From Micromonospora sp. U21 (GTDB lineage: Bacteria > Actinomycetota > Actinomycetes > Mycobacteriales > Micromonosporaceae), in NCBI RefSeq assembly GCF_018070045.1, contig NZ_JAGPYK010000001.1:434001-498000 (forward strand): a stretch of DNA of 64,000 bases, in the 5' to 3' direction. How positions within the stretch are numbered: the first letter of the stretch is position 1; every line of letters begins with the position of its first letter. Shown piece by piece: positions 15,184-42,437 of the stretch. The notes under the pieces are model-generated. The model saw nothing but the letters and a program-made list of their open reading frames with translations. It had not been told where the DNA came from and did not search any database. The translations under genes were made by a program, and so were the position numbers.

Positions 15184-15193
15184 TCTCTTATTT

Positions 15194-16767: not shown

Positions 16768-16830
16768 CGCGGCGCGGGCGAGGATGCCGGCGCTCCACCA
16801 TGGCGTACCCGGCGGCGGGCGGCGAACGGG

Positions 16831-16838: not shown

Positions 16839-16845
16839 AGTCGGC

Positions 16846-17565
16846 ATGGCCGAGAACACCGGGAGCGCCCCGGGCGCCCAGCGGTTCATCCCGCCGGGCG
16901 CGGACACCATCGACGAGCTGCGCGCCGCCTCGGGCGGCTGCCAGGGGTGCGAGCTGTACCGGGACGCCACGCAGACGGTCTTCGGCCGCGGCGACGAGAG
17001 TGCCCGGGTGGTGCTGGTCGGCGAACAGCCCGGCGACATGGAGGACCAGAAGGGGCTGCCCTTCGTCGGTCCGGCCGGCCGGCTGCTGCGCAAGGCCGTC
17101 GACGACGCCGGGCTCGACCCCTCGCAGATCTATCTGACCAACGCGGTGAAGCACTTCCGCTTCGAGCTGCGCGGCAAGCGGCGTATCCACCAAACCCCGG
17201 ACCGGGTGCACATCACCGCCTGCCGACCCTGGCTGGTCGCCGAGTTCGCCCGGCTCGACCCGGAGATCGTCGTGGTGCTCGGCGCCACCGCCGCGAAGGC
17301 GCTCCTCGGCCCGACGTTCCGGGTGACGAAGCAGCGCGGGGAGCTGCTGCCCTGGCCGGCGTCGGCCCAGCATCCGGAGGACTTCACCCAGGTGCCGGTG
17401 GACAGTGCCGGCAGGGTCGCCGACGCGCCAGAGGCGCGCCTGCTCGCCACCATCCACCCGTCCGCGGTGCTGCGCGCCGACGATCAGGACAAGGCGTACG
17501 AGGGCCTGGTCGCCGACCTCACCGTCGCCGCCCGCGCCCTGCCCGCCGGACGCCGGCCGGAGTGA
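16846..17565 (+). CDS. udgX: UdgX-type uracil-DNA glycosylase/uracil-DNA crosslinking protein
   Basis: 239-aa member of the uracil-DNA glycosylase superfamily, UdgX class. Seen: four Cys likely to bind an Fe-S cluster (CQGC near residue 32, and later Cys including ACRPW), motif GEQPGD (~65), GLPFVGPAGRLL, and the class-defining insertion KRRIH with His115 (codon 17188-17190). In the mycobacterial UdgX this His attacks the abasic sugar and traps the protein covalently on DNA. C-terminal motif ATIHPSAVLR. Single gene, leaderless promoter candidate upstream. Confidence 0.92.
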   Translation: MAENTGSAPGAQRFIPPGADTIDELRAASGGCQGCELYRDATQTVFGRGDESARVVLVGEQPGDMEDQKGLPFVGPAGRLLRKAVDDAGLDPSQIYLTNAVKHFRFELRGKRRIHQTPDRVHITACRPWLVAEFARLDPEIVVVLGATAAKALLGPTFRVTKQRGELLPWPASAQHPEDFTQVPVDSAGRVADAPEARLLATIHPSAVLRADDQDKAYEGLVADLTVAARALPAGRRPE

Positions 17566-17654
17566 CGAGCGTCGGCTCGGCCGACAGCGAAACCCACTGC
17601 CGCTGATCGGCACGGGTGCGCGAGGATGGGTCACCCCCGTCCTGAGGAGCGCCG

Positions 17655-19040
17655 ATGGCCACCGACCTGACCGCGCCGCGTACCGTCCGGCCCGACGTCG
17701 CGCCGATCCAGCGGCGTACCCTGCGGCTGCTCTTCACCACCCAGATCATCGGCGGCGTCGGCGTGACCATCGGCATCGCCGTCGGCGCGCTGCTCGCCGC
17801 CCGGATCGCCGGCACGGCGGCGGCCGGGCTGGCGCAGAGCGCCGGGGTGGTGGGCGCGGCGTTGCTCGCCATCCCGGTCACCCGGATCATGGCGCGGCAC
17901 GGCCGGCGACCGGGCCTGGTGGTGGCCTACGCGGTCGGGGCCGTCGGCGGCGTGCTGGTGGTGCTGGCCGCGGCCACCCGCTGGGTGCCGCTGCTCTTCC
18001 TCGGCATGCTGCTCTTCGGCGGAGGCACCGCCGCGAACCTCCAGGCCCGCTACACGGCGGTGGACCTCGCCGAGCCGGCCCGCCGGGGCCGGCAGCTCTC
18101 CCTGATCGTGTGGGCCACCACCATCGGCGCGGTGGCCGCGCCGAACTTCGCCGCGCTGGCCGACCGGGTCACCACCGGTTGGGGGCTGCCACCGCTGGCC
18201 GGCCCGTTCGCGTTCAGTGCGGTCGCGTTCGTGCTGGCTGGTGGCGCACTCCTCGGGTTGCTCCGGCCCGACCCGCTGCTCACCGCGCGTCGTCTCGCGG
18301 CGGCCGACGCGCCACCCGCCGCCGACGTGCCGGCGACTGTCGTGGCGGCCGAGGCGCCGGCGGACGGTGGCCCGGTCGGTGGCGGTGCGGCACCCGCCGC
18401 CGCTCCCGTCGGGGTGCGCCCGTCGCGCGGCGCCGGGATGCGCGCGGCCTGGTCGGTGGTACGCGAACGGCCGGCGGCCCGGCTCGGCATCGCGGCGGTG
18501 GCGGTCGGCCACCTGGTGATGGTGGCGGTGATGTCGATGACCCCGGTCCGGCTCGGTGAGTCGCACGCCGACGCCGACGTGCTGCGGCTGGTCGGCATCG
18601 TGCTGAGCCTGCACATCGCCGGCATGTACGCGTTCTCGCCGCTGGTCGGCTGGCTCACCGACCGGCTCGGCCGGCGGGTGGTGATCCTCGGTGGGGTGGG
18701 GCTGCTGCTGGCCGCCTGCGCGGTCGCCGGCACCGCCGGGCACCACACGCCCCGGCTCTCGGTGGGGCTGGTCCTGCTCGGGCTGGGTTGGTCGGGGACG
18801 ATGGTGGCCGGTTCGACGCTGCTCTCCGAGTCGGTGCCGGCCGGTGTGCGGCCGAGCGTCCAGGGGCTGTCCGACCTGACCATGGGGCTGGCCGGGGCGG
18901 GCGCCGCCATGGTCAGCGGGTTTGTCATGCAGGTGGCCGGTTATCCGGTGCTCGCCCTGCTCGCGGCGGTCGCGACGGTGCCCCTGGTGGCGCTAGCGTT
19001 GCGCCCGGTGCCGACCGGGGCACCAGACGAGGAGGGCTGA
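17655..19040 (+). CDS. MFS transporter
   Basis: 461-aa major facilitator protein with about 12 hydrophobic segments and a ~50-residue Ala/Pro-rich loop between the two halves (residues ~215-265). Motif A-like loops are TRIMARHGRRPG and GWLTDRLGRRVV; the second copy is closer to consensus. Glycine-rich helices and the lack of a substrate motif leave the function open, though drug or metabolite efflux is most likely. It is followed after 4 bp by the DUF3046 gene, with GAGGAGGG at its own 3' end serving that gene. Confidence 0.85.
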   Translation: MATDLTAPRTVRPDVAPIQRRTLRLLFTTQIIGGVGVTIGIAVGALLAARIAGTAAAGLAQSAGVVGAALLAIPVTRIMARHGRRPGLVVAYAVGAVGGVLVVLAAATRWVPLLFLGMLLFGGGTAANLQARYTAVDLAEPARRGRQLSLIVWATTIGAVAAPNFAALADRVTTGWGLPPLAGPFAFSAVAFVLAGGALLGLLRPDPLLTARRLAAADAPPAADVPATVVAAEAPADGGPVGGGAAPAAAPVGVRPSRGAGMRAAWSVVRERPAARLGIAAVAVGHLVMVAVMSMTPVRLGESHADADVLRLVGIVLSLHIAGMYAFSPLVGWLTDRLGRRVVILGGVGLLLAACAVAGTAGHHTPRLSVGLVLLGLGWSGTMVAGSTLLSESVPAGVRPSVQGLSDLTMGLAGAGAAMVSGFVMQVAGYPVLALLAAVATVPLVALALRPVPTGAPDEEG

Positions 19041-19044
19041 TCAC

Positions 19045-19245
19045 GTGCGGCTGACCGACTTCTGGGCGCGGCTGGAGGAGGCGTTCGGCCCCGGCTACGC
19101 GGCCAGCATCGCCCGCGACCAGGTGCTGTCCCAGCTCGATGGACGCACCATCGAGCAGGCGCTGGCGTCGGGGGAGCAGACGCACGTGGTGTGGCGGGCG
19201 GTCTGCGCCGCGTACCCCGACCGGGTGCCCGCGCGACTACGCTGA
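19045..19245 (+). CDS. DUF3046 protein
   Basis: 66-aa protein starting MRLTDFWARLEEAFGPGYA, the signature of DUF3046, a small family found upstream of recA in many actinobacteria. Function unknown. The GTG start has GGAGGG nearby, in the end of the MFS gene. The C-terminus ends in DRVPARLR. Confidence 0.88.
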   Translation: MRLTDFWARLEEAFGPGYAASIARDQVLSQLDGRTIEQALASGEQTHVVWRAVCAAYPDRVPARLR

Positions 19246-19282
19246 GCAGCCTTTTCGTGGCTTCCGCGTGTCACTTGTCGAG

Positions 19283-19298
19283 TCGTACACCTGTTCGG
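19283..19298 (+). promoter_or_regulatory. LexA (SOS) box of recA
   Basis: TCGTACACCTGTTCGG matches 13 of 16 positions of the actinobacterial LexA consensus TCGAACACATGTTCGA and lies in the 184-bp gap before recA. A LexA gene is present at 51861-52646. Confidence 0.75.
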
Positions 19299-19429
19299 CT
19301 ATTGTCCACAGCGGGGTGCTCGTCCACAGCTCGCGGCCCGTCGGCTGGTTTTCTGTCGGACCCAGCGCCTAGCGTGTCCGCGTGACGCGAAGCTCAGCAA
19401 AGACGCCGGCGAAGGCAGGGGTGGCAACC

Positions 19430-21568
19430 ATGGCAGCAGGGCCTGACCGGGAGAAGGCACTCGACCTTGCTCTCGCTCAGATTGACAAGCAGTTCGGCAA
19501 GGGCTCGGTGATGCGGCTGGGGGAGCGGCCCGTCATCCAGACCGCCGTGATCCCGACCGGTTCCATCGCGCTCGACGTGGCGCTCGGCGTGGGTGGCCTG
19601 CCCCGCGGCCGGGTGGTCGAGATCTACGGCCCCGAGTCCAGCGGTAAGACCACGGTGGCGCTGCACGCGGTGGCCAGTGCCCAGCGGGCCGGCGGCATCG
19701 CGGCCTTCATCGACGCTGAGCACGCGCTCGACCCGGATTACGCGAAGGCCCTCGGCGTCGACACCGACGCGATGCTGGTCTCCCAGCCGGACACCGGCGA
19801 GCAGGCGCTGGAGATCGCGGACATGCTGATCCGTTCCGGCGCGATCGACATCATCGTGATCGACTCGGTGGCGGCCCTGGTGCCGCGTGCCGAGATCGAG
19901 GGCGAGATGGGCGACAGCCATGTGGGTCTCCAGGCCCGGTTGATGAGCCAAGCCCTGCGGAAGATCACCGGTGTGCTCAGCAACACCGGCACCACGGCGA
20001 TCTTCATCAACCAGCTCCGGGAAAAGATCGGCGTGATGTTCGGTTGCATGTCGTACTCGACCCGGGTCACCCTGGCCGACGGCACGCAGGAGAAGATCGG
20101 CAAGATCGTCAACCAGCGGATGGACGTCGAGGTCCTCTCCTACAACCCGGACACTGACCGGGTGGAGCCCAAGCGGATCACCAACTGGTTCAACAACGGT
20201 CCGGCCGAGCAGTTCCTCCAGTTCACCGTCGCCAAGTCGGGTGGTAACGGTCGCGCGCAGTTCGCCGCGACTTCCAACCACCTCGTGCGTACGCCCGGCG
20301 GCTGGCGGGAGGCAGGTGAGTTGATCGCCGGTGACCGGGTGATGCTGACCGAGCCGCGGCGCCTCAGTGAGCAGCAGTGGCAGGTCGTCCTCGGCTCGCT
20401 GATGGGTGATGGCAACCTGTCACCGAATCGTCAGGGCCGTTCCGGCGTTCGGTTCCGCCTGGGCCACGGCGCGCAGCAGGTCGACTACCTCGACTGGAAG
20501 GTGTCGTTGCTCGGCAACATCGCCGTGTCACGTCGGGTTGACACCCGAGGTGCTGCATTTGCCGACTTCGCTCCTTTGCCTGAGCTGGACGAGCTCCGTC
20601 AAGCGGTCTATCTCGGCGACGGTAAGAAGCACCTGAGCTGGGATTATCTCAAGGCCCTGACCCCGTTGGCGCTGGCGGTGTGGTTCATGGACGACGGCTG
20701 CTTCACGCTGCGGTCCAAGGGGCTGCAGGAGCGCACCGAGGGTGGCTCCGGCCGGATCGAGATCTGCGTCGAGGCGATGGCCGAGGGAAGTCGGGAGCGT
20801 CTGGTCGAGCACCTGCGCGACGCGTACGGCATGGACGTGAAGCTGGTCGCTCGTGGCACCCGGCAGACGACGTCGATCATCTTCACCACTGCGGCCACGG
20901 CGAAGTTCCAGGCACTGATCGCGCCATACGTGCCAGCGGCGATGGAGTCCAAGCTGCTGCCGCGATTCCGTGGCCAGTGTGTCGTTGAGCCGCAGTTCGT
21001 TTCGGCGGAGCTCATGCCGGTGCCGGCTCGGATCATCGACGTGCACGTCAAGCCCAAGGCGCGCTCGATGAACCGGTTCGACATCGAGGTCGAGGGCAAC
21101 CACAACTACTTCGTCGATGGTGTCATGGTGCACAACAGCCCCGAGACCACCACCGGTGGCCGGGCGCTGAAGTTCTACGCGTCGGTCCGGCTCGACGTGC
21201 GGCGCATCGAGAGCCTCAAGGACGGCACCGACGTGGTCGGTAACCGCACCCGGGTCAAGGTCGTGAAGAACAAGGTCGCCGCGCCGTTCAAGCAGGCCGA
21301 GTTCGACATCATGTACGGCAAGGGCATCTCGCGCGAGGGCTCGCTGATCGACGTCGGCGTGGAGCAGGCGATCATCCGCAAGTCCGGCGCCTGGTACACC
21401 TACGACGGCGACCAGCTCGGCCAGGGCAAGGAGAAGGCCCGGGAGTTCCTGAAGGAAAACCCGGACGTGGCGGCCGAGATCGAGAAGAAGATCCTGGAGA
21501 AGCTCGGCGTCGGGGTCGGCGCGAGCGACGCCGCCGGTGGCCCGGAGCTGCCGCCGGTCGACTTCTGA
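19430..21568 (+). CDS. recA: RecA recombinase precursor containing an intein
   Basis: DNA-dependent ATPase for homologous recombination and LexA co-protease. The precursor is 712 aa; removing the 364-aa intein leaves a normal-size RecA of 348 aa. Walker [26 protein letters not shown] and [22 protein letters not shown] are intact. The extein junction is MFG / [13 protein letters not shown], in the DNA-binding loop L2 region. ATG 19430 was chosen because [11 protein letters not shown] matches the usual RecA N-terminus and AAGGCAGGGG precedes it; a GTG at 19382 would add 16 residues. recX follows after 14 bp. The SOS box is upstream. Confidence 0.96.
20045..21136 (+). other. RecA intein with LAGLIDADG homing endonuclease domain
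   Basis: In-frame insertion of 364 codons after Gly205 of RecA. N-terminal splice block [13 protein letters not shown] (Cys1), B-block [13 protein letters not shown], endonuclease motifs [12 protein letters not shown] and [13 protein letters not shown]-terminal blocks [21 protein letters not shown] (penultimate His, terminal Asn) followed by extein Ser. All splicing residues are present, so splicing should work. The insertion site and sequence resemble the Mycobacterium leprae RecA intein (after Gly205) and not the M. tuberculosis one. Both acidic catalytic residues of the endonuclease motifs are retained. Confidence 0.95.
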
Positions 21569-30027: not shown

Positions 30028-30091
30028 CGTCGATCTAGGAAAGATCGCTGCTCAGGGAGATCCACTGGCAGCAACGTGCCCTAGATCGACG
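30028..30091. repeat. 12-bp perfect inverted repeat around a 40-nt core (small mobile-element-like or terminator)
   Basis: CGTCGATCTAGG (30028-30039) and its exact complement CCTAGATCGACG (30080-30091) bracket 40 nt that contain further GATC/GCTGC words. It spans the end of the DUF2277 gene, whose TAG stop lies in the right arm, and is 35 bp past the convergent 159-aa gene. Too far apart for a classical terminator loop; resembles a short non-coding repeat unit. Confidence 0.5.
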
Positions 30092-30368
30092 CGGAGGGGG
30101 CGGCCGACGCGGAGGGGGCGGTGGGGGCGGCGGGGGCTGGCCGGTCCGCTGTGGTGGGCCCGGCTCCTCTGACCACCAACTGGTCTAGCAGGGTGCGGGT
30201 CGCCTCGGTCACGGCAGCCACCGCGGCGTCGAACGCGGCGGCGTTGTGCGCGGCGGGCGCCCGGAAGCCCGAGATCTTCCGGACGTACTGCAACGCCGCC
30301 GCCTCGATGTCCGCCTCGGTCACCTGCGGGGTGAACGGCTCACGCAGCGTCTTGATGCTCCGGCACAT
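30081..30368 (-). CDS. DUF2277 protein
   Basis: 95-aa protein beginning MCRSIKTLREPFTPQVTEADIEAAALQYVRKISGFRAP, the signature of DUF2277, a small family often annotated only as hypothetical. GAGGAG precedes ATG 30368. The last ~25 residues are an Ala/Pro/Ser-rich tail translated from a GGGGGCGG repeat tract. It is divergent from the FxS precursor gene. Confidence 0.85.
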   Translation of the reverse strand: MCRSIKTLREPFTPQVTEADIEAAALQYVRKISGFRAPAAHNAAAFDAAVAAVTEATRTLLDQLVVRGAGPTTADRPAPAAPTAPSASAAPSASI

Positions 30369-30436: not shown

Positions 30437-30465
30437 GTGACACTGGGTCGATATTTGTCTATCCT
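30437..30465 (+). promoter_or_regulatory. Promoter candidate for the fxs operon
   Basis: GTGACA (30437-30442), 17-bp spacer, TATCCT (30460-30465), in the AT-richer divergent gap before fxsA. The predicted start is about 65 nt before the fxsA GTG. Confidence 0.5.
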
Positions 30466-30538
30466 GGTCACGGACCAGAGCCTTTCGAGCCATTGTCGCC
30501 GCTCGCGCTCCCGCGCCCCGGGCCCCCGGAGACTCATT

Positions 30539-30727
30539 GTGGACCATGCCCCCACCCGCCCATCCCGTCCCGACCTCGACGATCTGACGCGTAGCCTGCA
30601 CACTCCGCTGGAGCGGATCGCCGTCGAGCATGCCGACCTGGTCGCGACTGTTCGGCAGCGCGTCCTCGCCGGTGGGTCGATGCCCTCGGGCGCCGTTCCC
30701 GTCGCCGCCTTCAACTCGTCCATCTGA
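30539..30727 (+). CDS. fxsA: FxSxx-COOH RiPP precursor peptide
   Basis: 62-aa precursor. It ends VAAFNSSI, fitting F-x-S-x-x-COOH with Phe58 and Ser60. In this class a radical SAM enzyme is thought to crosslink the Phe and Ser side chains into a small cyclophane. The N-terminal part (DLDDLTRSLHTPLERIAVEHADLV) is Leu-rich and probably the recognition leader. GTG 30539 is chosen because GGAG lies 8 nt upstream and the leader begins just after; in-frame sequence further upstream is Arg/Ser-rich and unlike a leader. fxsB starts 3 bp after its stop. Confidence 0.9.
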   Translation: MDHAPTRPSRPDLDDLTRSLHTPLERIAVEHADLVATVRQRVLAGGSMPSGAVPVAAFNSSI

Positions 30728-30730
30728 TCG

Positions 30731-33085
30731 ATGGCCTGCCGGTGTGGTTCGCCCGGCTCGGGCGGATCCTGCCGGCGGATCAGCCAGTTCGTGCTGAAGG
30801 TGCACAGCAGGTGTGACCTCAGCTGCGACCACTGCTACGTCTACCAGCACGCCGACCAGACCTGGCGTGGCCGACCGGTCCGGATGCCACCGGCCACCGT
30901 CCGGGCCGCCGCGAAGCGGATCGCCGAGCACGCGCGCGAGCACGAGCTGCCGGTCGTGCACGTGGTGCTGCATGGCGGCGAGCCGCTGTTGCTCGGTGTG
31001 GCCGGGCTGCGCGAGGTGTTGGCCGAGTTGCGGGCGGCGATCACGCCCTGGACCCAGCTCGACCTGCGCATGCAGACCAACGGCGTGCTGCTCGACGAGG
31101 AGCTGTGCGGTGTGCTGGTCGACCACGACGTGCAGGTCGGCGTGTCGTTTGACGGCGACCGCGCCGCCAACGACCGGCACCGCGTGTTCGCCCACGGCGG
31201 CAGCAGTCACGACCATGTCCGGCGGGCTCTGGCCCTGCTCCGTCACCCGGCGCATCGCGCCAGCTACGCCGGCATCCTCTGCACCGTCGATGTCCGCAAC
31301 GATCCCGACCGGGTGTACGAGGCCCTGCTGGCCGAACACCCGCCCCGGGTCGACCTGTTGCTGCCGCACGCCACCTGGGACCGCCCCCCGGACCGCCCCG
31401 GCGTCACGGCCACCCCGTACGCGGACTGGCTGGGGCGGATCTACCGGCGGTGGGTGGACGACGGGCGGCCCGTGTCGATCCGGCTGTTCGAGGCGCTGCG
31501 GCCGGGTGGAGGCGGCACCGAGGCGTTCGGCCTCGCCCCGGCCGACGTGCTCGTGGTCGAGGCGGACGGCACCTGGGAACAGGTCGACTCGCTGAAGACG
31601 GCGTACCACGGCGCGGCCGGCACCGGGTTCGACGTGTTCGGTCAGTCGGTGGACGAGGCCGCCCGGCACCCGGGGGTCGCCGTCCGGCAGGCCGGCGTGG
31701 CCGGGCTCAGCGCCACCTGTCGGGCCTGCCCGGTCGTCGACCGGTGCGGCGGTGGCCTGTATGCCCATCGTTGGCGCACCGGCTCCGGTTTCGACAACCC
31801 CTCGGTGTACTGCGCCGACCTGCGCCGCCTGATCGACACGGTGGCCGCGTACCCGCCACCGGGCCACGCCGCCCACTCCGCACCGCCGGAGCGGGACGAC
31901 CCGCCCGTCAACGAGCTGCTGGACGAGCTGGCGACCGGGCGCGAGTCGGAGCGGACCCTTGGTCTGCTCGCCGCCACCCAGCTCTCCATCACCCGGGCGC
32001 TGCTGGCGGCCTGGCGGGAGAAGACCGGCCCCACCGCCGCGTGGGAGCTGCTCGCTCACCTCGACGGCACGGCACCGGAGGCGGTCCGGGCGGTCCTGAC
32101 GCACCCCTTCGTCCGCTCGTGGCTGGTGCATCGCCTCGGCCCGCCGACCCGGTCCGGGCCACCCCGGGCGGGCGACCCGCTGCCGGCCCTCGCCGTCGTC
32201 GCCGCCCACCGGGCGGGCGTCCAGGCCGCGCTGACCGTCCCGGTGCGGGCCGGCACGACCACGCTGCCCACGCTCGGCAGCCTGGTGTTGCCGGACGTCA
32301 GCGGGGAGAGCGTCGAGGTGACCGTCCTGCCGGGCGGGTTCCGGGTCCGGGTCGGGCCGGCGGAGCAGGTGGTGTCCCTCGAACCGGCCGGGCCGCCGCC
32401 GGCCGGCTGGCTACCCACCCGCCGCGTGCCGGTGCCCGGTCGCCACCTGCTCGTCGAGGACGGCGACCCCTACCGGGACTGCTACGGCCAACCGGTCGCG
32501 TCCCGCCTGGACGACGCGGCGGCGCGAGCGTTGGGCCGTACCCTGGCCGACGCCTGGGGCGTCGTGCACCGCGACGTGCCGGCCCACGCGGCGGCGCTCG
32601 ACGCCGGTCTGCGCGCCGTCGTGCCGCTGGTCCCCGACCCGGCGAGACCGCTGCGCAGCGCCACCGCCCGGGACGCGTTCGGTGCGGTCGCCGTCACCCC
32701 CACCGCGGACCCGGAGGCGATGGCGGTGCTGCTCGTGCACGAGTGGCAGCACGCGAAGCTCGGCGCGGTGCTCGACCTGTACGACCTCGTCGAGGCGAGC
32801 TCGACCACCCGGATCCGGGTGCCCTGGCGCCCCGACCCCCGGCCGCCCGAGGGAGTGCTCCAGGGGGTGTACGCGCACCTGGCGGTCACCCAGATGTGGC
32901 GGTCCCGGGCGGACGCCGACCGACCCGAGCATCAGGACGCGCCGGCGCACGCGGCCCGTTACCTGTCGTGGACCCGGGACGGCGCCGACGTGCTGCTGGC
33001 CAGCCGCACGCTCACCCCGGCGGGGGAGCGGTTCGTCGGGCGGCTGCGGCAGGCCCTGGAGGAGACCCGTGTCGGGCCCGGATGA
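30731..33085 (+). CDS. fxsB: Radical SAM/SPASM cyclophane-forming maturase with C-terminal HExxH domain (FxsB)
   Basis: 784-aa fusion. Radical SAM domain with the 4Fe-4S triad C28, C32, C35 (CDLSCDHCYVY) and VVLHGGEPLLL; SPASM-like cysteines C330, C333, C339 and C361 (CRACPVVDRCGGG, VYCADL). Residues ~400-784 form an extension of the HExxH peptide-modification type with HEWQH at 670-674 and EASSTTRIRVPWRPDPRPPEGVLQGVYAH after it. The extended form of this family is described as having an inactivated second domain in many members, yet here the HExxH metal triad is complete. Expected to act on FxsA. The downstream acetyltransferase overlaps by 17 bp. Confidence 0.93.
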   Translation: MACRCGSPGSGGSCRRISQFVLKVHSRCDLSCDHCYVYQHADQTWRGRPVRMPPATVRAAAKRIAEHAREHELPVVHVVLHGGEPLLLGVAGLREVLAELRAAITPWTQLDLRMQTNGVLLDEELCGVLVDHDVQVGVSFDGDRAANDRHRVFAHGGSSHDHVRRALALLRHPAHRASYAGILCTVDVRNDPDRVYEALLAEHPPRVDLLLPHATWDRPPDRPGVTATPYADWLGRIYRRWVDDGRPVSIRLFEALRPGGGGTEAFGLAPADVLVVEADGTWEQVDSLKTAYHGAAGTGFDVFGQSVDEAARHPGVAVRQAGVAGLSATCRACPVVDRCGGGLYAHRWRTGSGFDNPSVYCADLRRLIDTVAAYPPPGHAAHSAPPERDDPPVNELLDELATGRESERTLGLLAATQLSITRALLAAWREKTGPTAAWELLAHLDGTAPEAVRAVLTHPFVRSWLVHRLGPPTRSGPPRAGDPLPALAVVAAHRAGVQAALTVPVRAGTTTLPTLGSLVLPDVSGESVEVTVLPGGFRVRVGPAEQVVSLEPAGPPPAGWLPTRRVPVPGRHLLVEDGDPYRDCYGQPVASRLDDAAARALGRTLADAWGVVHRDVPAHAAALDAGLRAVVPLVPDPARPLRSATARDAFGAVAVTPTADPEAMAVLLVHEWQHAKLGAVLDLYDLVEASSTTRIRVPWRPDPRPPEGVLQGVYAHLAVTQMWRSRADADRPEHQDAPAHAARYLSWTRDGADVLLASRTLTPAGERFVGRLRQALEETRVGPG

Positions 33086-33896
33086 GCCGTGCCACCTGCC
33101 CCCGCTCGATCGCCCCCGCCTCGCCGCGGACCTGCGGGCGTTGGGCATTCGTGCGGGTGCGTGCCTCCTCGTGCACTGTGGCCTCCGTCGGGTGGGTCCG
33201 CTGGAGCACGGCCCCGCGACGCTCGTCGGCGCGCTGCGCGACGTCCTCGGTCCGGCCGGCACGCTGCTGGTGCCCACCCAGACCGACGGCAACTCGACCA
33301 CCTCCCGGACCTACCTTGCGGCCACCGCCGGTATGGACGCGGCGCAGCTCGCCCGGTACGAGGCGGCCCTGCCGGGCTGGGACCGCCGGACCACCCCCTC
33401 GCAACGGATGGGGGTGCTCGCCGAGTTCGTCCGGTGTGCCCCCGGCGCGGCGCGCAGCGACCATCCGCAGACCTCGTTCGCCGCGCTCGGTCCCCGGGCG
33501 CGGCAGCTCACCGACGGCCACGACCTCGACTGCCACCTGGGCGAACGCTCACCGGTGGGCGCCCTGTACGCGGCGGACGGGCAGGTCCTGCTGCTCGGCC
33601 TCGGCTACGAGGCGTGCAGCGCGCTGCACCTGGCCGAGTACCGCCTGCCGGTGCCGCCGCCGGAACGGGACTACCGCTGTTTCCGGCTCGTCGACGGGCG
33701 TCGGGTCCGCCTCGACTTCCGCGCTCTCGACCTGGACGACAGCGACTTCCCGAGGGTGGGAGCCGCGCTCGACGGCGAGTCGTTCGTCCGGCACGGTCCG
33801 GTCGGCCGGGCGAGCGCGCGGCTGCTCCCACTGCGCGCCACTGTGGACTTCGCGGTTGACTGGTTCGCCGCGAACCGCTTGGCGGTCCGGCGTTGA
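33069..33896 (+). CDS. AAC(3)-family N-acetyltransferase in the FxS operon
   Basis: 275-aa protein with the aminoglycoside 3-N-acetyltransferase fold. Seen: LLVHCGLRRVG, TLLVPTQTDGNSTT, the catalytic-type motif DHPQTSFAALG (His132), GERSPVGALYAADGQVLLLGLGYEACSALHLAEY. Start GTG 33069 has GGAGGAG upstream and overlaps the end of fxsB, so the two are translated from one message. Resistance to aminoglycosides is possible, but operon position suggests acetylation of the FxS product or a related amine (inference). Confidence 0.88.
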   Translation: MSGPDEPCHLPPLDRPRLAADLRALGIRAGACLLVHCGLRRVGPLEHGPATLVGALRDVLGPAGTLLVPTQTDGNSTTSRTYLAATAGMDAAQLARYEAALPGWDRRTTPSQRMGVLAEFVRCAPGAARSDHPQTSFAALGPRARQLTDGHDLDCHLGERSPVGALYAADGQVLLLGLGYEACSALHLAEYRLPVPPPERDYRCFRLVDGRRVRLDFRALDLDDSDFPRVGAALDGESFVRHGPVGRASARLLPLRATVDFAVDWFAANRLAVRR

Positions 33897-33948
33897 CGCG
33901 GGTACTACGCTGATGTTCCGGCCGCGTGGGGAGGGCGGAGGGACAGCG

Positions 33949-34608
33949 GTGAGCACAATGGACCCACCCTCCGGCACGCGCGCCCCACTGTTTTTCCTCA
34001 GCTACTCCCGGGCGCCGGTCCGCCGGGCCACCGGCAACCCCGCCGAGTACGTTTCCCGCTTCTACGAGGACCTGTCGGTTCACGTCAGCGAGCTGGTCGG
34101 CCCGGTGACCGGAGTGGATCCCGGCTTCCTGGACAGTTCCATCGCGGGCGGAGAACGCTGGAGCCCCGAGCTGCTCCAGGCCGCCGGCACCTGCCAGGTC
34201 TTCGTTCCGCTGGTGTCCAGCGCGCTGCTCGGCAGCGACTGGTGTGGCCGGGAATGGGATGCCTTCTCCCGTCGGCGCATCGTCCCGCGGGCCGGCGCCT
34301 CCTCGGCGCACGAGACGGCGATCGTGCCGGTCACCTGGTCGCCGACGAACGGCACGCCACTGCCACGGGTGCTCCGCGACATCCAACGGTTCTCCCCGAC
34401 CGCGATGCCGGATCCGGACATCGCGGTGCACTACCAGCGGGATGGGGTCTACGGCTTGCTGACCATGCAGTGGGAGAACGCGTACCGGGCGGTGGTCTGG
34501 CGGCTCGCCCAACGGATCGTGGCCATCCACCGCTCGTACCTGGTGGAGCCGTGGGTGCCGTCGAGCGTGGACGAGCTGTGCAACCGGTTCGCCGAGGAAC
34601 ACGGATGA
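33949..34608 (+). CDS. fxsC: TIR-like protein FxsC, short form
   Basis: 219-aa protein with a TIR-like fold: LFFLSYSRAPVRRATGN at the start (strand A and box 1 equivalent), then DLSVHVSELVG, GTCQVFVPLVSSALLGSDWCGREWDAF and IVPVTWSP. It corresponds to the N-terminal domain of FxsC and lacks the second domain. GGAGGG lies 6 nt before GTG 33949. It lies 52 bp after the acetyltransferase; its stop overlaps the next gene (ATGA). A catalytic Glu typical of NAD-cleaving TIRs cannot be assigned from sequence alone. Confidence 0.85.
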   Translation: MSTMDPPSGTRAPLFFLSYSRAPVRRATGNPAEYVSRFYEDLSVHVSELVGPVTGVDPGFLDSSIAGGERWSPELLQAAGTCQVFVPLVSSALLGSDWCGREWDAFSRRRIVPRAGASSAHETAIVPVTWSPTNGTPLPRVLRDIQRFSPTAMPDPDIAVHYQRDGVYGLLTMQWENAYRAVVWRLAQRIVAIHRSYLVEPWVPSSVDELCNRFAEEHG

Positions 34609-35876
34609 GCCCGCCGGCGGGCCGACGCCGGGCGGCGGCCCGAGGGACGTACTTCTTCCTCAGCTATGCCCACTCCGCGCCTCCGCAGGGCGCCCGGGCC
34701 GACTCCGACGTCTGGGTCGGCCAGTTCTTCGCCGACCTGGCCGCGGAGGTGACCCGCCAGGCGCGGCCGGTGGCCGGGATGCGGATCGGGTTCTTCGACC
34801 AGCACATCCCGTTGGGCGCCGACTGGAAGGCGGCCCTCGCGGAGGCGCTCGGTGACGCTGAGGTCTTCGTCCCGCTCTACTCGCCCGGTTACTTCAGCCG
34901 CCCGTGGGCGCTGGGGGAGCAGGAATCCTTCCGGGCCCGGCTGGCCGCCGCCGGGCCGGCCCGGGCCGCCGCCGGCCACCTCACCCCGGTGCTGTGGATC
35001 CCCTTCCCGCCGTGGGAGACCCATCCGGAGCTGGACGGCGCCCTGGACCTGGGGCGGGACGTCCCGGAGTACGCCGAGAACGGCCTGCGCGCGCTCTGCA
35101 TGCTGGCCTCCTACCGGGCGCAGTACGAACTCCTGCTGAGCCGGTTGGCCGCCCGGATCGTGCACACCGCCGAGCGGCGGCCGCTCGGCCCGTCCCGGGC
35201 ACCCGGCCTGGACGAGGTCACCCGCCCTGCACCGACCGATCCGGACTTCGTCGTCGCCGTCCTGGCCCCCACCCGGGACCGCCTGCCGGCCGACCGTGAT
35301 CCCGCCGGCTACGCCGCCAGTGGCCGGCTCTGGCGGCCGTACGGCCGCCGTCAGGAACTGCCCGCCGCCGAGTACGCGGCCAGCACGGCCGAGCGGCTCG
35401 GGCTGTCGGCCCGCACGGCGGACTTCGCGCAGGCCGCCGGGCTGCTCGATCGCCGACCGGCCGTGCTGCTGGTCGACCCGTGGATCGTGGCGGCACCGGA
35501 TGCGCTCGGCACCGTCGAAGGCCTGCTGCACGGCCTACGGGAATGGGTCGTCCCGCTCGTGGTCACCGACGACGACGATGCGCAGGACGCCTCCCGATGG
35601 GCCACCGAGGTGACGGAACTGCTGCACGACGCCGGCCTGCCCCAGGTGAAGCAGGCATGCACCATGCGGGAGTTCGTCAACCTGATGCCGGCGCTGGTGA
35701 CCGAGGCCCGCCGCCAGTTCCTCAAGCACGCCCCGGTCGTCGCCTTCCCCCCGCCGCCGGAGCCGGTGCCCAGCCTGCGCGACTCGCCGCCCGGCCCCGG
35801 CCCGGCGAGTCCGCCCGACCCTGCGTCCCCGCCCGATGATCCGGCGACACCGCGTCCCCACGGAGAGACCCTATGA
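34605..35876 (+). CDS. fxsC: TIR-like protein FxsC, full-length form
   Basis: 423-aa FxsC. N-terminal TIR-like domain (TYFFLSYAHS, GMRIGFFDQHIPLGADWKAALAEALGDAEVFVPLYSPGYFSRPWALGEQ, VLWIPFPPW). A second domain (residues ~210-370, FVVAVLAPTRDRLP, LLVDPWIVAAPDALG, VTDDDDAQ, ALVTEARRQFLKHAP) is the family's C-terminal unit, followed by a Pro-rich tail. Tandem to the shorter copy with ATGA overlaps on both sides, so stoichiometric partners are likely. Confidence 0.88.
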   Translation: MSPPAGRRRAAARGTYFFLSYAHSAPPQGARADSDVWVGQFFADLAAEVTRQARPVAGMRIGFFDQHIPLGADWKAALAEALGDAEVFVPLYSPGYFSRPWALGEQESFRARLAAAGPARAAAGHLTPVLWIPFPPWETHPELDGALDLGRDVPEYAENGLRALCMLASYRAQYELLLSRLAARIVHTAERRPLGPSRAPGLDEVTRPAPTDPDFVVAVLAPTRDRLPADRDPAGYAASGRLWRPYGRRQELPAAEYAASTAERLGLSARTADFAQAAGLLDRRPAVLLVDPWIVAAPDALGTVEGLLHGLREWVVPLVVTDDDDAQDASRWATEVTELLHDAGLPQVKQACTMREFVNLMPALVTEARRQFLKHAPVVAFPPPPEPVPSLRDSPPGPGPASPPDPASPPDDPATPRPHGETL

Positions 35877-38800
35877 GCAACGATCGCGAAGGCCAGGTCG
35901 TCACCTTCTACTCGTTCAAGGGTGGAACGGGCCGGACGATGGCGCTGGCCAACGTGGCCTGGATCCTGGCGGCCAGCGGACGGCGGGTGCTGGTCGCGGA
36001 CTGGGACCTCGAGTCACCCGGCCTGCACCGCTTCTTCCACCCCTTCCTCGACGCCGAGGCGATCCAGGGCACCAGCGGCGTCATCGACCTCATCCGCGAC
36101 TACGAGTGGGAGACCACCCGGGCCGACGACCGCCCCGAGCGGTGGATGGAGCAGTACGCCCGCGTCGGCCGCCACGCGTTCTCACTGCGCTGGAACTTTC
36201 CGGACGGCGGCGGCCTCGACTTCCTCTCCGCCGGCCGGCAGAACAGCGACTACGCCGTCTCGGTCAGCGGGCTGGACTGGGACAACTTCTACAACCGGCT
36301 GGGCGGGGCGCAGTTCTTCGAGGCGCTGCGGGCGGACATGAAGCGGCAGTACGACTTCACCCTGATCGACAGCCGGACGGGGCTGAGCGACGTCGCCGAC
36401 ATCTGCACCCTGCACCTGCCGGACACCCTGGTCGACTGCTTCACCCTCAGCGACCAGGGCATCGACGGTGCGGCCCGGGTCGCGCACTCGGTGCGGGACC
36501 GCTACCGGCGGCGGGACATCCGGGTCCTGCCGGTGCCGATGCGGGTGGACCAGGCCGAGAAGGAGCGCGCCGAGGCGGGCCGCCTGCTGGCCATGCGCCG
36601 GTTCGCCGGGCTGCCGGCCGGGATGACGGAGGCGGAGCGGCGTCGGTACTGGGCGGCCGTGGAGGTCCCGTACCGGCCGTTCTACGCGTACGAGGAGACC
36701 CTCGCCACGTTCGGCGATCCGCCCGGCTCGCCGACGTCGCTGCTGGCCGCGTTCGAGACGTTGACCGGGATCCTCACCGACGGTGCGGTGACCGCGCTGC
36801 CGGTGATGGACGAGTCGGTGCGGGAACGGGGCAAGGCCCGCTTCCGCCGGCGCACCGAGGCGATCGACGACCAGATCGTGCTCCGTTGCGCCCCGGAGGA
36901 CGCCATCTGGGCCGAGTGGCTGGAGCGGGTGCTCAGTTCGGCCGGGATGCGGGTGGTGGATCCCGCGTCCGCCGTCGGGTCCGCCGGTACGCCCGCCCCG
37001 CGCACGCTGACGGTGGTCTCGCCGGCCTACGTGGCGACGCCGTCCGGTGGCCTGCCCGCTCGCGACACCAGCACCGGTTCCACGGCCCTCGCCGTGTACG
37101 TCGCCGACCTGCGCCCGCTGGCGGAGTTCCCGGCCCAGAGCTCGACCAACCTGGTCAACGTGAGCGCCGTGACGGCCGTGGAGCGGGTGTTGCGGCTGGT
37201 CGGCCGGCCGGTTCCGTCGTCGGCGGACGGCCCGGCGGGCGGGGGCGCCCGCTATCCCGGCGCCGAGCCGTTGATCTTCAACGCGCCCAACCGGAACGCC
37301 CGGTTCACCGGCCGCGAGGACGACCTGGCGCAACTGCGCGCGCAGTTGCAGAGCGGGGGCAGCGCGGTGGTGCTTCCGGTCGCTCTGCAGGGCATGGGCG
37401 GCGTCGGCAAGACGCAGGTCGCCCTGGAGTACGTGCACCGGTTCAAGTCCGCCTACGACGTGGTCTGGTGGATCGTCGCGGACCCGCCGCAGTTCGTCGA
37501 CACCGCCCTGGCCGACCTCGCCGCTCGGCTCGGCATCGCCGCCGGGCCCACCCTGCCCGACACCGTCCGGTCGGTGCTCCAGGTGCTGGGCAGGGGCGAG
37601 CCGTACGAGCGGTGGCTCGTCGTGCTCGACAACGCCGAGGAACTGGACCAGATCGAGCCCTTCCTGCCACAGGGGCCCGGGCACGTCCTGCTGACCTCCC
37701 GCAACCGCGCCTGGGGTGACCGGGCGAACCCGATCCAGGTCGACGTCTTCGACCGGACGGAGAGCGTCGCGCACCTCGCCCAGCGGGTGCCCACGATCAG
37801 CGCCGAGGAGGCCGACCGGGTGGCCGAGGCGCTCGGTGACCTGCCGATCGCCGTGGCCGCCGCCGGCGCGTGGCTCGCCGACACCGGCACGTCGGTCGCC
37901 GACTACCTGCGGCAGATCGAGCGGCACGGCCCCAGCGCGCTCTCCGTCGAGGCCACCTGGGACCTGTCGTTGAACCGGCTGCACGATCAGGCACCCGCCG
38001 CGTACCGGCTGTTGCAGCTCTGCTCGGTGCTGGCACCGGAGATCGCCCTCGACCTGATCTACAGCGACGAGATGGCGGCGGCCCTCGTGCCGTTCGACCC
38101 GTCGGTGTCGGAACGTCTCGTGCGCGGCGCCCTGATCCAGCAGATCAACCGGCTGGCGCTGCTCAAACTCGACGTCCAGGGCGGTCGGGTCCAGGTGCAC
38201 CGGCTCCTGCAGGCGGTGGTTCGGGACCGGATGACCGACGACGAGATCGTCACCGCCCGGCACCAGGTGCACCTGGTGCTGGCCGCGTCCCGACCGCGCG
38301 GCGACGTGGACAACCCGACCACCTGGCCCCGGCTGCGCATGCTCTGGCCGCACCTGGAGGTCTCCGAGGCGGTGACCTGCCCCGACGAGTCGGTGTGCCA
38401 GCTGCTGATCGACCGGGTCCGCTACCTGTGGCAGCGCGGCGGCCTGGAGCAGGCTGACGGGTTCAGCCGGCAGGTGGACGACACCTGGTCCGCGCGGCTG
38501 AGGGGCCTGGACGACGAGGGTGAGGCCACGGCGCCGCGTCGACACCTGCTGCACCTGCGGTTCAACCGGGCGAACATCCTGCGCAGCCTGGGTCGGTTCG
38601 ACGAGTCCCGGGACCTCGACGAGGCGGTGCTCGCCGAGCAGCGCCGGTTGTTGGGCCAGTTGCACCCGCACACCCTGATGACCGCCGGCAGCCTCGCCGG
38701 TGACCTGCGGGCGCTCGGCCGGTACGCCGAGGCGCTGGAACGGGACCGGTCCACCTACGCCTCCTGGCTCCAGGTGTTCGGCGAGGACCACCCCCGGACG

Positions 38801-39742
38801 CTGAGCGCGGCCAACAACCTCGCCGTCTCGTACCGCCTGGTCGGCGACTACCGGTCGGCCCGCCGATGGGACGACGAGGTGCACCAGCGGCGGCGGCTGG
38901 TGCTCGGCCCCACCCACCCGTACACCCTGATCTCGGCTGTCCGCCTGGGCAGCGACCTGCGCGAGGCCGGCGAGTACGAGAGGTCGGCCACCCTGCTACG
39001 CACCGTCTACGACGCGTACTGCGAGGTGCTCGGGCCCGACGACGGCCTCTCCCTCGGCGCCCAGGTCAACCTGGCGGTGTCGCTGCGCAGCTCGGGTCGG
39101 GCGGGCGAGGCCGCGCCGATGTTCGAGACCGCCTACCGGAAGCTCGACGAACGCTTCGGGCCGGACAACCCGGACACGGTGGCGTGCCGGTCGAGTCGGG
39201 CGGCGAACCTGTTGGCCGTCGGCGACGCGGCCCGGGCGCTGACCGAGATGACCGCGGTCACCCAGGCGTACGAGGAGGACCTGCGCCTCGGCGCCACCCA
39301 CCCGCACACCCTGGCCACGTTGAGCAACATCTCCGCCGCCGAACGTGCGGTCGGCCGCCGGTCGGCGGCCCGCGCGTCGGCCACGCGCGCGGCCGGCGAG
39401 CTGCGCAAGGTGCTCGGCCCCGACCACCCGCACACCCTGGCGGCCGAGGTGAACCAGGCGGTGTGCCTCGCCGAGGACGGCGAGTGGGTTCCGGCGCGGG
39501 ACCGGCTGCGCGAGACCGCCGACCGGCTGTCCCAGGTGATCGGCGCGGACCACCCCGACACGCTGCGCTGCCTCGGTGATCTCGCCCTGGTGTCGAGGCG
39601 CGCCGGCGACGGCGCTCCCTCCGAGGCCGTGACCGCGGTGGCCGACCGGCTGGCCGAGGTGATCGGCCAGGAGCACACGACCGTGCAGACCCTGCGTGAG
39701 CGGCGGTTCGTCGTCCGGGTGATCGACCCGCACCCGTTCTGA
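35873..39742 (+). CDS. fxsT: FxSxx-COOH system NTPase/tetratricopeptide protein (FxsT)
   Basis: 1289-aa multidomain protein. Residues ~8-320: MinD/ParA-like P-loop domain with the variant KGGTGRT (16-22) and ADWDLESPGLHRFF. Residues ~325-430: a small alpha/beta segment resembling a TIR-like region. Residues ~480-750: NB-ARC/STAND ATPase with GMGGVGKTQVALEYVHRF (506-523), WLVVLDNAEEL and LLTSRNR. Residues ~850-1250: successive TPR-type repeats, each with HPHTL or NPDTV-like ends. This architecture is that of the FxS-associated TPR protein. STAND proteins act as ligand-triggered switches, so it may sense the FxS product or a threat; this is inference. Confidence 0.92.
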   Translation: MSNDREGQVVTFYSFKGGTGRTMALANVAWILAASGRRVLVADWDLESPGLHRFFHPFLDAEAIQGTSGVIDLIRDYEWETTRADDRPERWMEQYARVGRHAFSLRWNFPDGGGLDFLSAGRQNSDYAVSVSGLDWDNFYNRLGGAQFFEALRADMKRQYDFTLIDSRTGLSDVADICTLHLPDTLVDCFTLSDQGIDGAARVAHSVRDRYRRRDIRVLPVPMRVDQAEKERAEAGRLLAMRRFAGLPAGMTEAERRRYWAAVEVPYRPFYAYEETLATFGDPPGSPTSLLAAFETLTGILTDGAVTALPVMDESVRERGKARFRRRTEAIDDQIVLRCAPEDAIWAEWLERVLSSAGMRVVDPASAVGSAGTPAPRTLTVVSPAYVATPSGGLPARDTSTGSTALAVYVADLRPLAEFPAQSSTNLVNVSAVTAVERVLRLVGRPVPSSADGPAGGGARYPGAEPLIFNAPNRNARFTGREDDLAQLRAQLQSGGSAVVLPVALQGMGGVGKTQVALEYVHRFKSAYDVVWWIVADPPQFVDTALADLAARLGIAAGPTLPDTVRSVLQVLGRGEPYERWLVVLDNAEELDQIEPFLPQGPGHVLLTSRNRAWGDRANPIQVDVFDRTESVAHLAQRVPTISAEEADRVAEALGDLPIAVAAAGAWLADTGTSVADYLRQIERHGPSALSVEATWDLSLNRLHDQAPAAYRLLQLCSVLAPEIALDLIYSDEMAAALVPFDPSVSERLVRGALIQQINRLALLKLDVQGGRVQVHRLLQAVVRDRMTDDEIVTARHQVHLVLAASRPRGDVDNPTTWPRLRMLWPHLEVSEAVTCPDESVCQLLIDRVRYLWQRGGLEQADGFSRQVDDTWSARLRGLDDEGEATAPRRHLLHLRFNRANILRSLGRFDESRDLDEAVLAEQRRLLGQLHPHTLMTAGSLAGDLRALGRYAEALERDRSTYASWLQVFGEDHPRTLSAANNLAVSYRLVGDYRSARRWDDEVHQRRRLVLGPTHPYTLISAVRLGSDLREAGEYERSATLLRTVYDAYCEVLGPDDGLSLGAQVNLAVSLRSSGRAGEAAPMFETAYRKLDERFGPDNPDTVACRSSRAANLLAVGDAARALTEMTAVTQAYEEDLRLGATHPHTLATLSNISAAERAVGRRSAARASATRAAGELRKVLGPDHPHTLAAEVNQAVCLAEDGEWVPARDRLRETADRLSQVIGADHPDTLRCLGDLALVSRRAGDGAPSEAVTAVADRLAEVIGQEHTTVQTLRERRFVVRVIDPHPF

Positions 39743-39815: not shown

Positions 39816-40724
39816 CTAGAGCTGCGGGCTGGCCGCGAGCTCCGGCGTGGCCAGCCAGGCCAGGGTCTGCGGGAGGATCTCCACCGCGCCGAAGTGCGCG
39901 GCGCCCGCCTGCACCTGGACCTCGGCGTGCGGGATCCGCGAGGCGAGCCACCGGGAGTGCTCCACCGGGGAGAAACGGTCCTGCTCACCGTGCCACAGCC
40001 GGACCTGCGCCGGGATGGCGCCGAGGTCGAACCCCCAGCCCCGCCGCATCGCCAGCACGTCGTCGATCCAGCCCTCGGGGCCGTGCCGCAGCGCTTCGGC
40101 GTACATGTCGGTCAGCAGCCGGCGGATCGCGACGTCGTCGACCACCCGGATGTCGGCCTCGGGCAGCTGGGGGCGGAGGAATTCCAACAGCGTCATCGGG
40201 TCCCGTCGGGCCTGTTCCGCACGGACCTTCAGATTGAGCGTGAGTTCGGCCAGGTCCTCATCGGCCTGCCCGTAGTCCTCGACGTTGGTCTCGGACATGC
40301 CGGCGTACCAGTCCAGGTCGGGTGCGCCGGCCGGGGCGAGCCCCACCAGCACGGCGGCCCGGGTGACCCGGTCCGGCAGCAGCGCGGCGCAGGCCAGGGC
40401 GTGCGGGCCCCCGCCGGAGCGGCCCACCACCGCGAACCGTTCGATGCCGAGGTCGTCGGCGATCGCCGCAACGTCGGCCGCCGCGTCGGCGACCCGGCGA
40501 CCCTCGTGCCGGCAGGAGTCGCCGTAACCGGGCCGGTCGTAGCAGACGAGTTGCACGCCGAGGCGGTAGAGGACGATGCCGCGGGGGCGGGGGCCGCTGC
40601 GGCTGCCCGGTGTGCCGTGCAGCAGGAAGACCGCGGGCCCGTCCGGCGAGCCGGAGGTCTCCACCGCGAGGTGCCGGCCGTCCGGAGTGGCGACGGAGCG
40701 CTGTGCCGCATGTTGTCGCGTCAC
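39816..40724 (-). CDS. Alpha/beta hydrolase
   Basis: 302-aa alpha/beta-hydrolase fold enzyme. Oxyanion region VFLLHGTPGSRSG, nucleophile elbow GRSGGG, late acid region WHGEQDRFSPVEHSRWL, catalytic His in GAAHFGAVE. GGGAGG lies before GTG 40724; an ATG at 40775 would add 17 unlike residues. Substrate unknown. It converges on fxsT and is divergent from miaB, so it is probably not part of the FxS operon. Confidence 0.86.
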   Translation of the reverse strand: MTRQHAAQRSVATPDGRHLAVETSGSPDGPAVFLLHGTPGSRSGPRPRGIVLYRLGVQLVCYDRPGYGDSCRHEGRRVADAAADVAAIADDLGIERFAVVGRSGGGPHALACAALLPDRVTRAAVLVGLAPAGAPDLDWYAGMSETNVEDYGQADEDLAELTLNLKVRAEQARRDPMTLLEFLRPQLPEADIRVVDDVAIRRLLTDMYAEALRHGPEGWIDDVLAMRRGWGFDLGAIPAQVRLWHGEQDRFSPVEHSRWLASRIPHAEVQVQAGAAHFGAVEILPQTLAWLATPELAASPQL

Positions 40725-40943
40725 GGTTGCCTCCCGCGGGTCGTCATGTGCTCCCCCGAGTACGGAGCCGCGCATCGGCGGCACCGAGTGCAAAGCCCCC
40801 GAAATCGCCCAGAACACATTCTTGTTGTGCAGCGTACTGCCCGTCGTGGGCCCCCGCCATGGGCCAGCGGGTCAATGCCGGTCGGCTGAGCCCGCCGACC
40901 GGGCCGCTACCCTGGTACCCCGAGGGGAAGGGGCACCAAGAGG

Positions 40944-42437
40944 GTGGCTAGGACCTACAACGTCGTGACCTACGGCTGCCAGATGAACGTGCACGATTCC
41001 GAGCGCATCTCCGGCCTGCTCGAACAGGCCGGCTACGTACGCGCGGCGCCGGCCGACGACACCCCCGACATCGTCGTCTTCAACACCTGTGCGGTGCGGG
41101 AGAACGCCGACAACCGGCTCTACGGCAACCTCGGCCGTCTGCGCCCGGTGAAGGACAAGCACCCCGGGATGCAGATCGCGGTCGGCGGCTGCCTGGCCCA
41201 GAAGGACCGTGGCGAGATCGTCCGCAAGGCGCCCTGGGTGGACGTGGTCTTCGGCACCCACAACATCGGTGCACTGCCGGTGCTGCTGGACCGCGCCCGG
41301 CACAACGCCGCCGCCGAGGTGGAGATCCTGGAGTCACTGGACGTCTTCCCGTCCACGCTGCCCACCCGGCGCGAATCCACGTACGCCGGCTGGGTCTCGA
41401 TCTCGGTGGGCTGCAACAACACCTGCACGTTCTGCATCGTGCCCGCTCTGCGCGGCAAGGAGAAGGACCGCCGCCCCGGCGACATCCTCTCCGAGGTGCG
41501 CGCCCTGGTCGACGAGGGCGTGCTGGAGGTGACCCTGCTCGGGCAGAACGTCAACTCCTACGGTGTCGAGTTCGGTGATCGGTACGCATTCGGCAAGCTG
41601 CTGCGCGCTTGCGGCGACATCGACGGGCTGGAGCGGGTCCGGTTCACCAGCCCGCACCCGAAGGATTTCACGGACGACGTGATCGCCGCGATGGCCGAGA
41701 CGCCGAACGTCTGCCACTCGCTGCACATGCCGTTGCAGTCCGGCTCCGACGCCGTACTCCGGGCGATGCGCCGGTCCTACCGGTCCGACCGTTACCTGGG
41801 GATCATCGAGAAGGTCCGGGCGGCGATGCCGGACGCGGCGATCACCACCGACATCATCGTCGGCTTCCCCGGCGAGACCGAGGCCGACTTCCAGCGCACC
41901 CTGGACGTGGTTCGGGAGGCCCGGTTCTCCTCGGCCTTCACCTTCCAGTACTCCAAGCGCCCCGGCACTCCCGCCGCCACGATGGACGACCAGCTGCCCA
42001 AGCAGGTCGTGCAGGAACGCTACGAGCGGCTGATCGCCACCGTGGAGGAGATCACCTGGGCGGAGAACAAGCGCCTGGTGGGGGAGACCGTCGAGGTGCT
42101 GGTCGCGGTCGGCGAGGGGCGCAAGGACGAGCGGACCGGCCGGATGTCCGGCCGGGCCCGCGACGGTCGGCTGGTGCACTTCGCGACCACAGCGTCCGAC
42201 GGTGGGTCACTGGCCGGGCAGATCCGGCCGGGAGACATCGTGCGCACCGCGGTGACGTACGCCGCCCCGCATCACCTCAACGCCGACGGCGCGCCACTGT
42301 CGCACCGGCGGACCCGGGCCGGCGACGCCGCCGAGGCGGGCCGCTCCCCGCGTACGCCCGGGGTGTTGCTCGGGCTGCCCACGGTCGGCGCTCCGGCGGT
42401 CACGCACGCACCCACCAACGGCTGCGCCGCCCACTGA
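40944..42437 (+). CDS. miaB: tRNA-2-methylthio-N6-dimethylallyladenosine synthase
   Basis: 497-aa radical SAM methylthiotransferase that thiomethylates i6A37 in tRNA. N-terminal UPF0004 cluster Cys in [21 protein letters not shown] and GGCLAQKD; radical SAM motif [13 protein letters not shown]-terminal TRAM domain ([18 protein letters not shown] onward) and a ~50-residue tail. miaA, which makes the i6A substrate, lies 2.4 kb downstream. GTG start with a purine-rich site upstream. A 57-bp palindrome begins at the next base after the stop. Confidence 0.95.

Follow-up and report, generated by a model that had tools for sequence, protein, structure and literature searches.

The 64,000-nucleotide stretch of Micromonospora sp. 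U21 analysed here (the window; all coordinates are positions of that stretch) contains a locus of the FxS (FxSxx-COOH) type, in which a small peptide is encoded next to a radical SAM enzyme and to signalling-like proteins. The gene order fxsA-fxsB-aac(3)-fxsC-fxsC-fxsT of the initial annotation was recovered, with every gene at or close to the place given there, and the fxsC1/fxsC2 and fxsC2/fxsT junctions are ATGA overlaps (Table 1). The profile search which that annotation had proposed for FxsA, FxsB, FxsC and FxsT placed FxsB, both FxsC proteins and FxsT above the curated NCBIfam cut-offs, but not FxsA, which reached 19.9 bits (E 0.00067) with the precursor model TIGR04268 and is thus under its cut-off of 28. 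Membership in the FxS systems therefore rests on FxsB, FxsC and FxsT. The precursor itself is as described, both in its C-terminal AAFNSSI and in its placement ahead of fxsB. While the FxS assignment stands, the locus was also called complete and placed between conserved housekeeping genes; the former does not hold because a co-conserved alpha/beta-hydrolase gene beyond fxsT had been overlooked, and the latter fails on that same side.

Table 1. Features of the FxS locus in the window and the evidence for each.
Feature	Coordinates	Strand	Evidence
Sigma-70-like promoter candidate, GTGACA-17-TATCCT	30437..30465	+	consensus scan 9/12; shuffles mean 0.0
fxsA, 62 amino acids (aa), GTG start, C-terminus V53-P-V-A-A-F58-N-S60-S-I	30539..30727	+	sequence
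V-P-V-A-A stretch ahead of the core, proposed site of HExxH action	30695..30709	+	profile of intact-HExxH loci; inference
Phe58-Asn59-Ser60, predicted cyclophane	30710..30718	+	sequence; family chemistry (passage of PMC11002830)
fxsB (FxsBH), radical SAM/SPASM fused to alpha-ketoglutarate (aKG)-HExxH domain, 784 aa	30731..33085	+	TIGR04269 541.8 bits (cut-off 370); TIGR04267 160.2 bits (cut-off 40)
Radical SAM/SPASM domain, aa 17-372, CxxxCxxC at aa 28	30779..31846	+	9gm3 ChlB, E 2.9e-69
C-terminal HExxH-containing half; aa 413-774 match NF040587, aa 605-771 match TIGR04267	31967..33052	+	profiles; solved relative 22nu_A (440 aa), E 4.8e-59
HEWQH motif, aa 670-674, intact	32738..32752	+	sequence
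AAC(3)-family acetyltransferase-like, 275 aa, overlaps the end of fxsB	33069..33896	+	Pfam Antibiotic_NAT 250.8 bits
fxsC1, TIR-like, candidate catalytic Glu102	33949..34608	+	NF040588 160.9 bits (cut-off 130); Glu column
fxsC2, TIR aa 14-186 (Glu105) and second TIR/flavodoxin-like domain aa 212-375	34605..35876	+	NF040588 156.3 bits (cut-off 130); TIGR04276 65.7 bits (cut-off 55)
fxsT, ParA/MinD-like domain with KGGTGRT, alpha/beta linker part, NB-ARC, TPRs	35873..39742	+	NF040586 964.8 bits (cut-off 300); NF047398 138.4 bits (cut-off 90)
Alpha/beta-hydrolase, triad S134-D280-H308, proposed additional member	39816..40817	-	Pfam Abhydrolase_1; neighbourhood and co-occurrence

The locus was compared within a set of 242 loci, all picked by FxsB similarity and with some genomes present twice: the window, 158 loci from sampled genomes, 80 named loci (from Micromonospora, Actinoplanes, Kitasatospora, Streptomyces, Microbispora and others) and three loci from a virus collection. 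FxsB is fused to the HExxH part in 210 of them, namely the window, 129 of the 158 and all 80 named loci. FxsC, the ParA domain and FxsT are each found in 195 of the fused loci, and six of the 15 without FxsC end shortly after fxsB; the association of these genes in fused loci exceeds chance. In a phylum-wide sample of 396 genomes, 16 have FxsB at E <=1e-60; in a sample of 151 genomes from the genus 97 do, and there a high-scoring fused class (539 bits or more, 69 of the 151 genomes) and a shorter class can be distinguished. A profile search of the genome to which the window belongs returned one FxsB above the cut-off and two FxsC proteins, both of the latter within the locus.

Judged by its sequence, FxsB is two enzymes in one chain, the second of the aKG-HExxH type, whose members hydroxylate peptides or cut them oxidatively. 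The radical SAM/SPASM identity given by the initial annotation is confirmed, whereas the HExxH half, like the hydrolase, was absent from it. The model NF040587, which matches most of this half, already exists in NCBIfam for the inactivated form of the HExxH domain. Of the first 130 fused loci, 74 have an intact motif and 56 have lost it; across all 210 fused loci the losses number 70. HExxH, R700 and R704 are invariant across the 74 intact loci, and the stretch with R700 and R704 is common to the HExxH half of FxsB and ChlH. Where HExxH is lost, D702, R704 and H716 are replaced in nearly all loci and R700 in more than half; many of the remaining residues are kept and the domain itself persists.

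The hydrolase gene is adjacent to fxsT and convergent with it, tail to tail, in 174 of the 195 fused loci with FxsT, the median gap among adjacent pairs being 64 nucleotides. It lies upstream on the plus strand in eight loci, adjacent on the same strand in one and farther away in one; no copy was found in 11, of which two have a fetched stretch that stops at fxsT and two (L143 and L151) have copies at the edge of or beyond theirs. When genomes are counted without correction for relatedness, strong copies (>330 bits) are present in 66 of the 69 genomes of the genus with a fused FxsB (at least 539 bits) versus one of the 82 others, and in a second genus the hydrolase (E 1e-60) is present in 61 of 65 genomes with FxsB (E 1e-140) versus 10 of 134 without. 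The sole exception among the 82, G417, has the remaining locus on a contig which starts inside the HExxH part of fxsB. The pairing is thus seen in two genera that belong to different families. All 187 aligned copies keep Ser134 and Asp280 of the triad, and all 185 that were counted keep His308. From this conservation of residues, place and company we conclude that the hydrolase is probably a working part of the FxS system, and its gene may serve as a practical marker for complete loci.

Some observations weigh against this conclusion. At the thresholds applied, eight of the 10 second-genus genomes that have the hydrolase but not FxsB lack both FxsC and the ParA domain (the other two have both), so that related hydrolases also occur outside the system. 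The gene is on the opposite strand and hence not in an operon with the fxs genes. The downstream gene was also sought in 18 genomes of the same genus without FxsB; some match at E 1e-40 was obtained in eight, a close copy in G417 alone, and no empty site was shown among them. As to its function, a serine-esterase-type hydrolase removes the leader in crocagin biosynthesis, according to a passage of PMC10885120, and because of that precedent peptide processing is one option. Among the matches listed in our literature search, a hydrolase partner of FxS systems is not mentioned.

The state of the HExxH motif varies together with the sequence in front of the peptide core. After identical C-termini were dropped 191 fused loci remained, 185 of them with a readable FxsA (six were excluded). 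In these 185 distinct loci, Val at position -3 combined with Ala or Gly at -2 or -1 before the core Phe is found in 102 of 121 with intact HExxH versus 1 of 64 with lost HExxH. In 118 FxsA sequences from intact loci the most frequent residues were V at -5 (86), V at -3 (102), A at -2 (99) and A at -1 (81); the same positions are mixed in the 64 sequences from lost loci, 37 of which have T at -1. On an FxsB tree built from the radical SAM domain only, HExxH status changed at least six times, a large Streptomyces-like clade counting as one event. The HExxH half may therefore act on the stretch beside the ring, a directional lead given how few status changes the tree holds.

This lead has to be set against several counts. 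Six independent pairs on the tree gave about four that agree, none that disagree and about two without difference (sign test about 0.125), and with six pairs, about two of them uninformative, the test cannot reach 0.05. The AAF core is kept despite a broken HExxH in L043, L157 and L160/L161, and in five of the 121 loci with intact HExxH both -2 and -1 are occupied by residues other than A and G. A strict rule that intact HExxH implies A or G at one of these positions held for 74 of 74 intact loci among the first 125 and was withdrawn when it failed in those five of the larger set. Other candidate correlates were not retained: N at +1 and I at +4 lean slightly the opposite way on the tree and S at +3 tends in the same direction (2.5 versus 0.4 of six pairs), all far from significance, and the AAC(3)-like gene shows no link to HExxH (91 of 121 intact, 38 of 64 lost). 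Loci in which a short FxsB is accompanied by a separate HExxH protein have cores that include SAF, AGW, NAF and WGF, but SCF as well (L008), which is a loose fit.

The two FxsC proteins are TIR-like, and FxsT joins ParA-like, NB-ARC and TPR modules, in agreement with the initial annotation. FxsC shows the TIR fold, and its Glu (Glu102 or Glu105 in the window) is near-invariant (183 of 186). In a weak match of hidden Markov models (HMMs) this residue aligns with a Glu of L6/L7, and we take it to be the catalytic Glu of TIR NADases. FxsC shares its fold and a Glu in the aligned place with AbTir, RPP1, RUN1 and SARM1, at a weak level of sequence match. The NB-ARC motifs of FxsT are intact. Its residues 335-445 were suspected by eye to be a further TIR domain; the structural model is partly of low confidence there, and structure matches covered the ParA part alone. 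No experimental study of FxsC or FxsT was found among the literature matches listed.

The protein between FxsB and FxsC1 belongs to the broad Pfam family of AAC(3) acetyltransferases and has its best PDB match in 3sma FrbF (E 1.1e-42), presumably a natural-product enzyme. It scored 167.3 bits with the NCBIfam model AAC_3, under the cut-off of 270, and fell below four other AAC(3) models as well. As these curated cut-offs were missed and only the broad family was matched, the label is limited to AAC(3)-like, and we would not call it a resistance gene.

In front of the locus the promoter candidate claimed earlier was found again, as a consensus match only. A DUF2277 gene (30087-30368, minus strand) lies immediately upstream, and adjoins the locus in the window's own clade only. 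It was rejected as a member of the system, being present beside 33 of 34 loci with HEWQH (repeats included) and beside none of the other fused loci. Beyond the hydrolase, a gene with Radical_SAM and UPF0004 domains follows at 40944-42437 (plus strand), which we take to be MiaB-like.

ChlB/ChlH and fused radical SAM/aKG-HExxH proteins were reportedly described in Nat. Chem. 2024, a paper cited in PMC12636437. The radical SAM half of FxsB matches ChlB (9gm3), and its HExxH half shares the pWR.D.RPp stretch of ChlH (8s5f). The targets reported for the ChlB/ChlH type in passages of PMC12636437 are Asp and His, whereas the window combines an FxS core with TIR and STAND proteins. The HExxH oxygenases PosC and PflC, treated in the same passages, are comparable as enzymes, but are from Pseudomonas and act on Gln repeats and ARMD. 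There, Ala or Gly favours cleavage of the backbone and larger residues beta-hydroxylation. In MscB, a triceptide synthase, a SPASM radical SAM enzyme forms a three-residue Phe-x-Ser cyclophane, which by analogy is predicted here too; the relevant passage of PMC11002830 does not mention a HExxH half, while FxsB of the window has one.

The kind of system is already known: its parts are named by NCBIfam, and standalone FxSxx systems were predicted in PMC7159879 (eLife 2020), whose passages list a small peptide, a SPASM radical SAM protein, a HExxH protein and an AP-ATPase with TPRs and a ParA-like domain, all shared with the window. In the window, however, the HExxH domain is part of the FxsB chain, where we interpret it as an aKG oxygenase rather than a peptidase, and the passages name neither an alpha/beta-hydrolase nor an AAC(3)-like partner for the standalone system. 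Compared to the FxS systems as modelled by NCBIfam, the locus differs in the low score of FxsA, in having two FxsC genes and in its acetyltransferase-like and hydrolase neighbours. A relation to the VMAP ternary system was considered as well, and the 10 flanking ORFs (open reading frames) scanned, which are part of the window's genes, gave no Pfam match to MoxR, vWA or VMAP genes. As far as the literature searched shows, the hydrolase partner and the covariation of HExxH and core are new.

The reading we lean to, with some hesitation, is that of a peptide-gated TIR/STAND conflict system, with a TIR enzyme that would be under the control of the matured FxsA tail. By analogy to the chemistry of the family, we predict a link between Phe58 and Ser60, made by the radical SAM half of FxsB. 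After that, an intact HExxH half would oxidise the V-A-A stretch immediately in front of the ring, through beta-hydroxylation or through an oxidative cleavage of the backbone that frees the peptide; this step is proposed because of the motif covariation and the PosC/PflC precedent. The AAC(3)-like protein and the convergent hydrolase might trim or cap the product, which is a guess. FxsT, whose NB-ARC motifs are intact, may sense the peptide or its loss and assemble the TIR domains of FxsC, and from the fold and the near-invariant Glu we infer that NAD+ would be consumed. In a bolder form, to which we give little credence, the fused enzyme would close the Phe58-Ser60 ring, whereupon its HExxH half would cut the backbone oxidatively at Ala56/Ala57; the capped cyclophane would be freed independently of proteases and act as ligand for a TIR/STAND immune receptor, and the hydrolase would be an off-switch that destroys it. 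Such a bacterial immune receptor would be gated by a self-made, post-translationally modified peptide. If the peptide does gate a TIR enzyme, the chemistry of ribosomally synthesised and post-translationally modified peptides (RiPPs) would enter bacterial immunity or programmed death. The question of what FxsC and FxsT do, which the initial annotation had left without assignment, can now be put to concrete targets: a single Glu in each FxsC, the HExxH motif of FxsB, the V-A-A stretch of FxsA and the hydrolase gene.

A function in conflict has its own difficulties. The FxsC profile matches plant TIRs weakly (best E 0.013), and PADLOC gave no match for FxsC1, FxsC2, the AAC(3)-like protein or the hydrolase, its partial matches being PDC-M28B for the ParA part of FxsT (80 and 47.6 bits) and viperin for FxsB (30 bits). 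The mature peptide could instead be an intracellular or exported signal, FxsC and FxsT controlling growth or antibiotic production and FxsC acting as an adaptor or as a low-level maker of a second messenger. We regard this as possible but rather doubtful. In its favour, residues 472-797 of FxsT weakly match AfsR, a SARP regulator (49.8 bits, far under the cut-off of 1430), many genomes of the genus have the fused FxsB, and the neighbourhood with DUF2277 upstream is common to close relatives, unlike that of a mobile defence island; against it stand the near-invariant TIR Glu, the STAND architecture and the place among conflict systems that passages of PMC7159879 give to the class. The same source allows the processed peptide to be a toxin or a signal, and the acetyltransferase and hydrolase could conceivably give self-protection. 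FxsA as a secreted toxic cyclophane, with FxsC, FxsT and the hydrolase for guard, immunity and control, is nevertheless unlikely, since no transporter or export family was matched among the locus proteins in the profile scans and no signal peptide is evident in FxsA by eye.

The most sceptical account takes the HExxH half for a mere substrate-binding module with a relic motif, and the hydrolase for hitch-hiking synteny. The domain that persists where HExxH has gone, the tree-aware test short of significance and the eight genomes with a related hydrolase apart from FxsC and ParA all fit it. It is hard to reconcile with the invariance of HExxH, R700 and R704 in intact loci, with the stretch in common with ChlH, with the conserved triad and with a hydrolase pairing that holds in two genera of different families, and we consider it improbable.

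Several loci depart from the pattern of the window. L160, L161 and L206 combine a fused FxsB with a broken HExxH and a FxsT-like match; within the fetched stretch, FxsC, the ParA domain and the hydrolase are without a match. In L021 three consecutive FxsT-like ORFs follow a short FxsB (10218-19892, oriented to the fxsB strand). The precursor beside the short FxsB of L013 (14148-14387, minus strand) contains GNFNSFI twice, and that of L014, also beside a short FxsB, NFSSFI several times; both fetched stretches are without a HExxH match. L089 and L093 have a short FxsB and a FxsT-like gene, and the ORF before fxsB contains FNNQNGGVPT, unlike an FxS core. On L242, a 130-kb IMG/VR contig, an FxsB-like radical SAM gene at about 7830-9050 (TIGR04269 313.9 bits, cut-off 370) is directly preceded by a short ORF with PFNNAI, LFQSKI and PFNSDI stretches, and similar FxsB-like genes are found in L243 and L244 of the virus collection.

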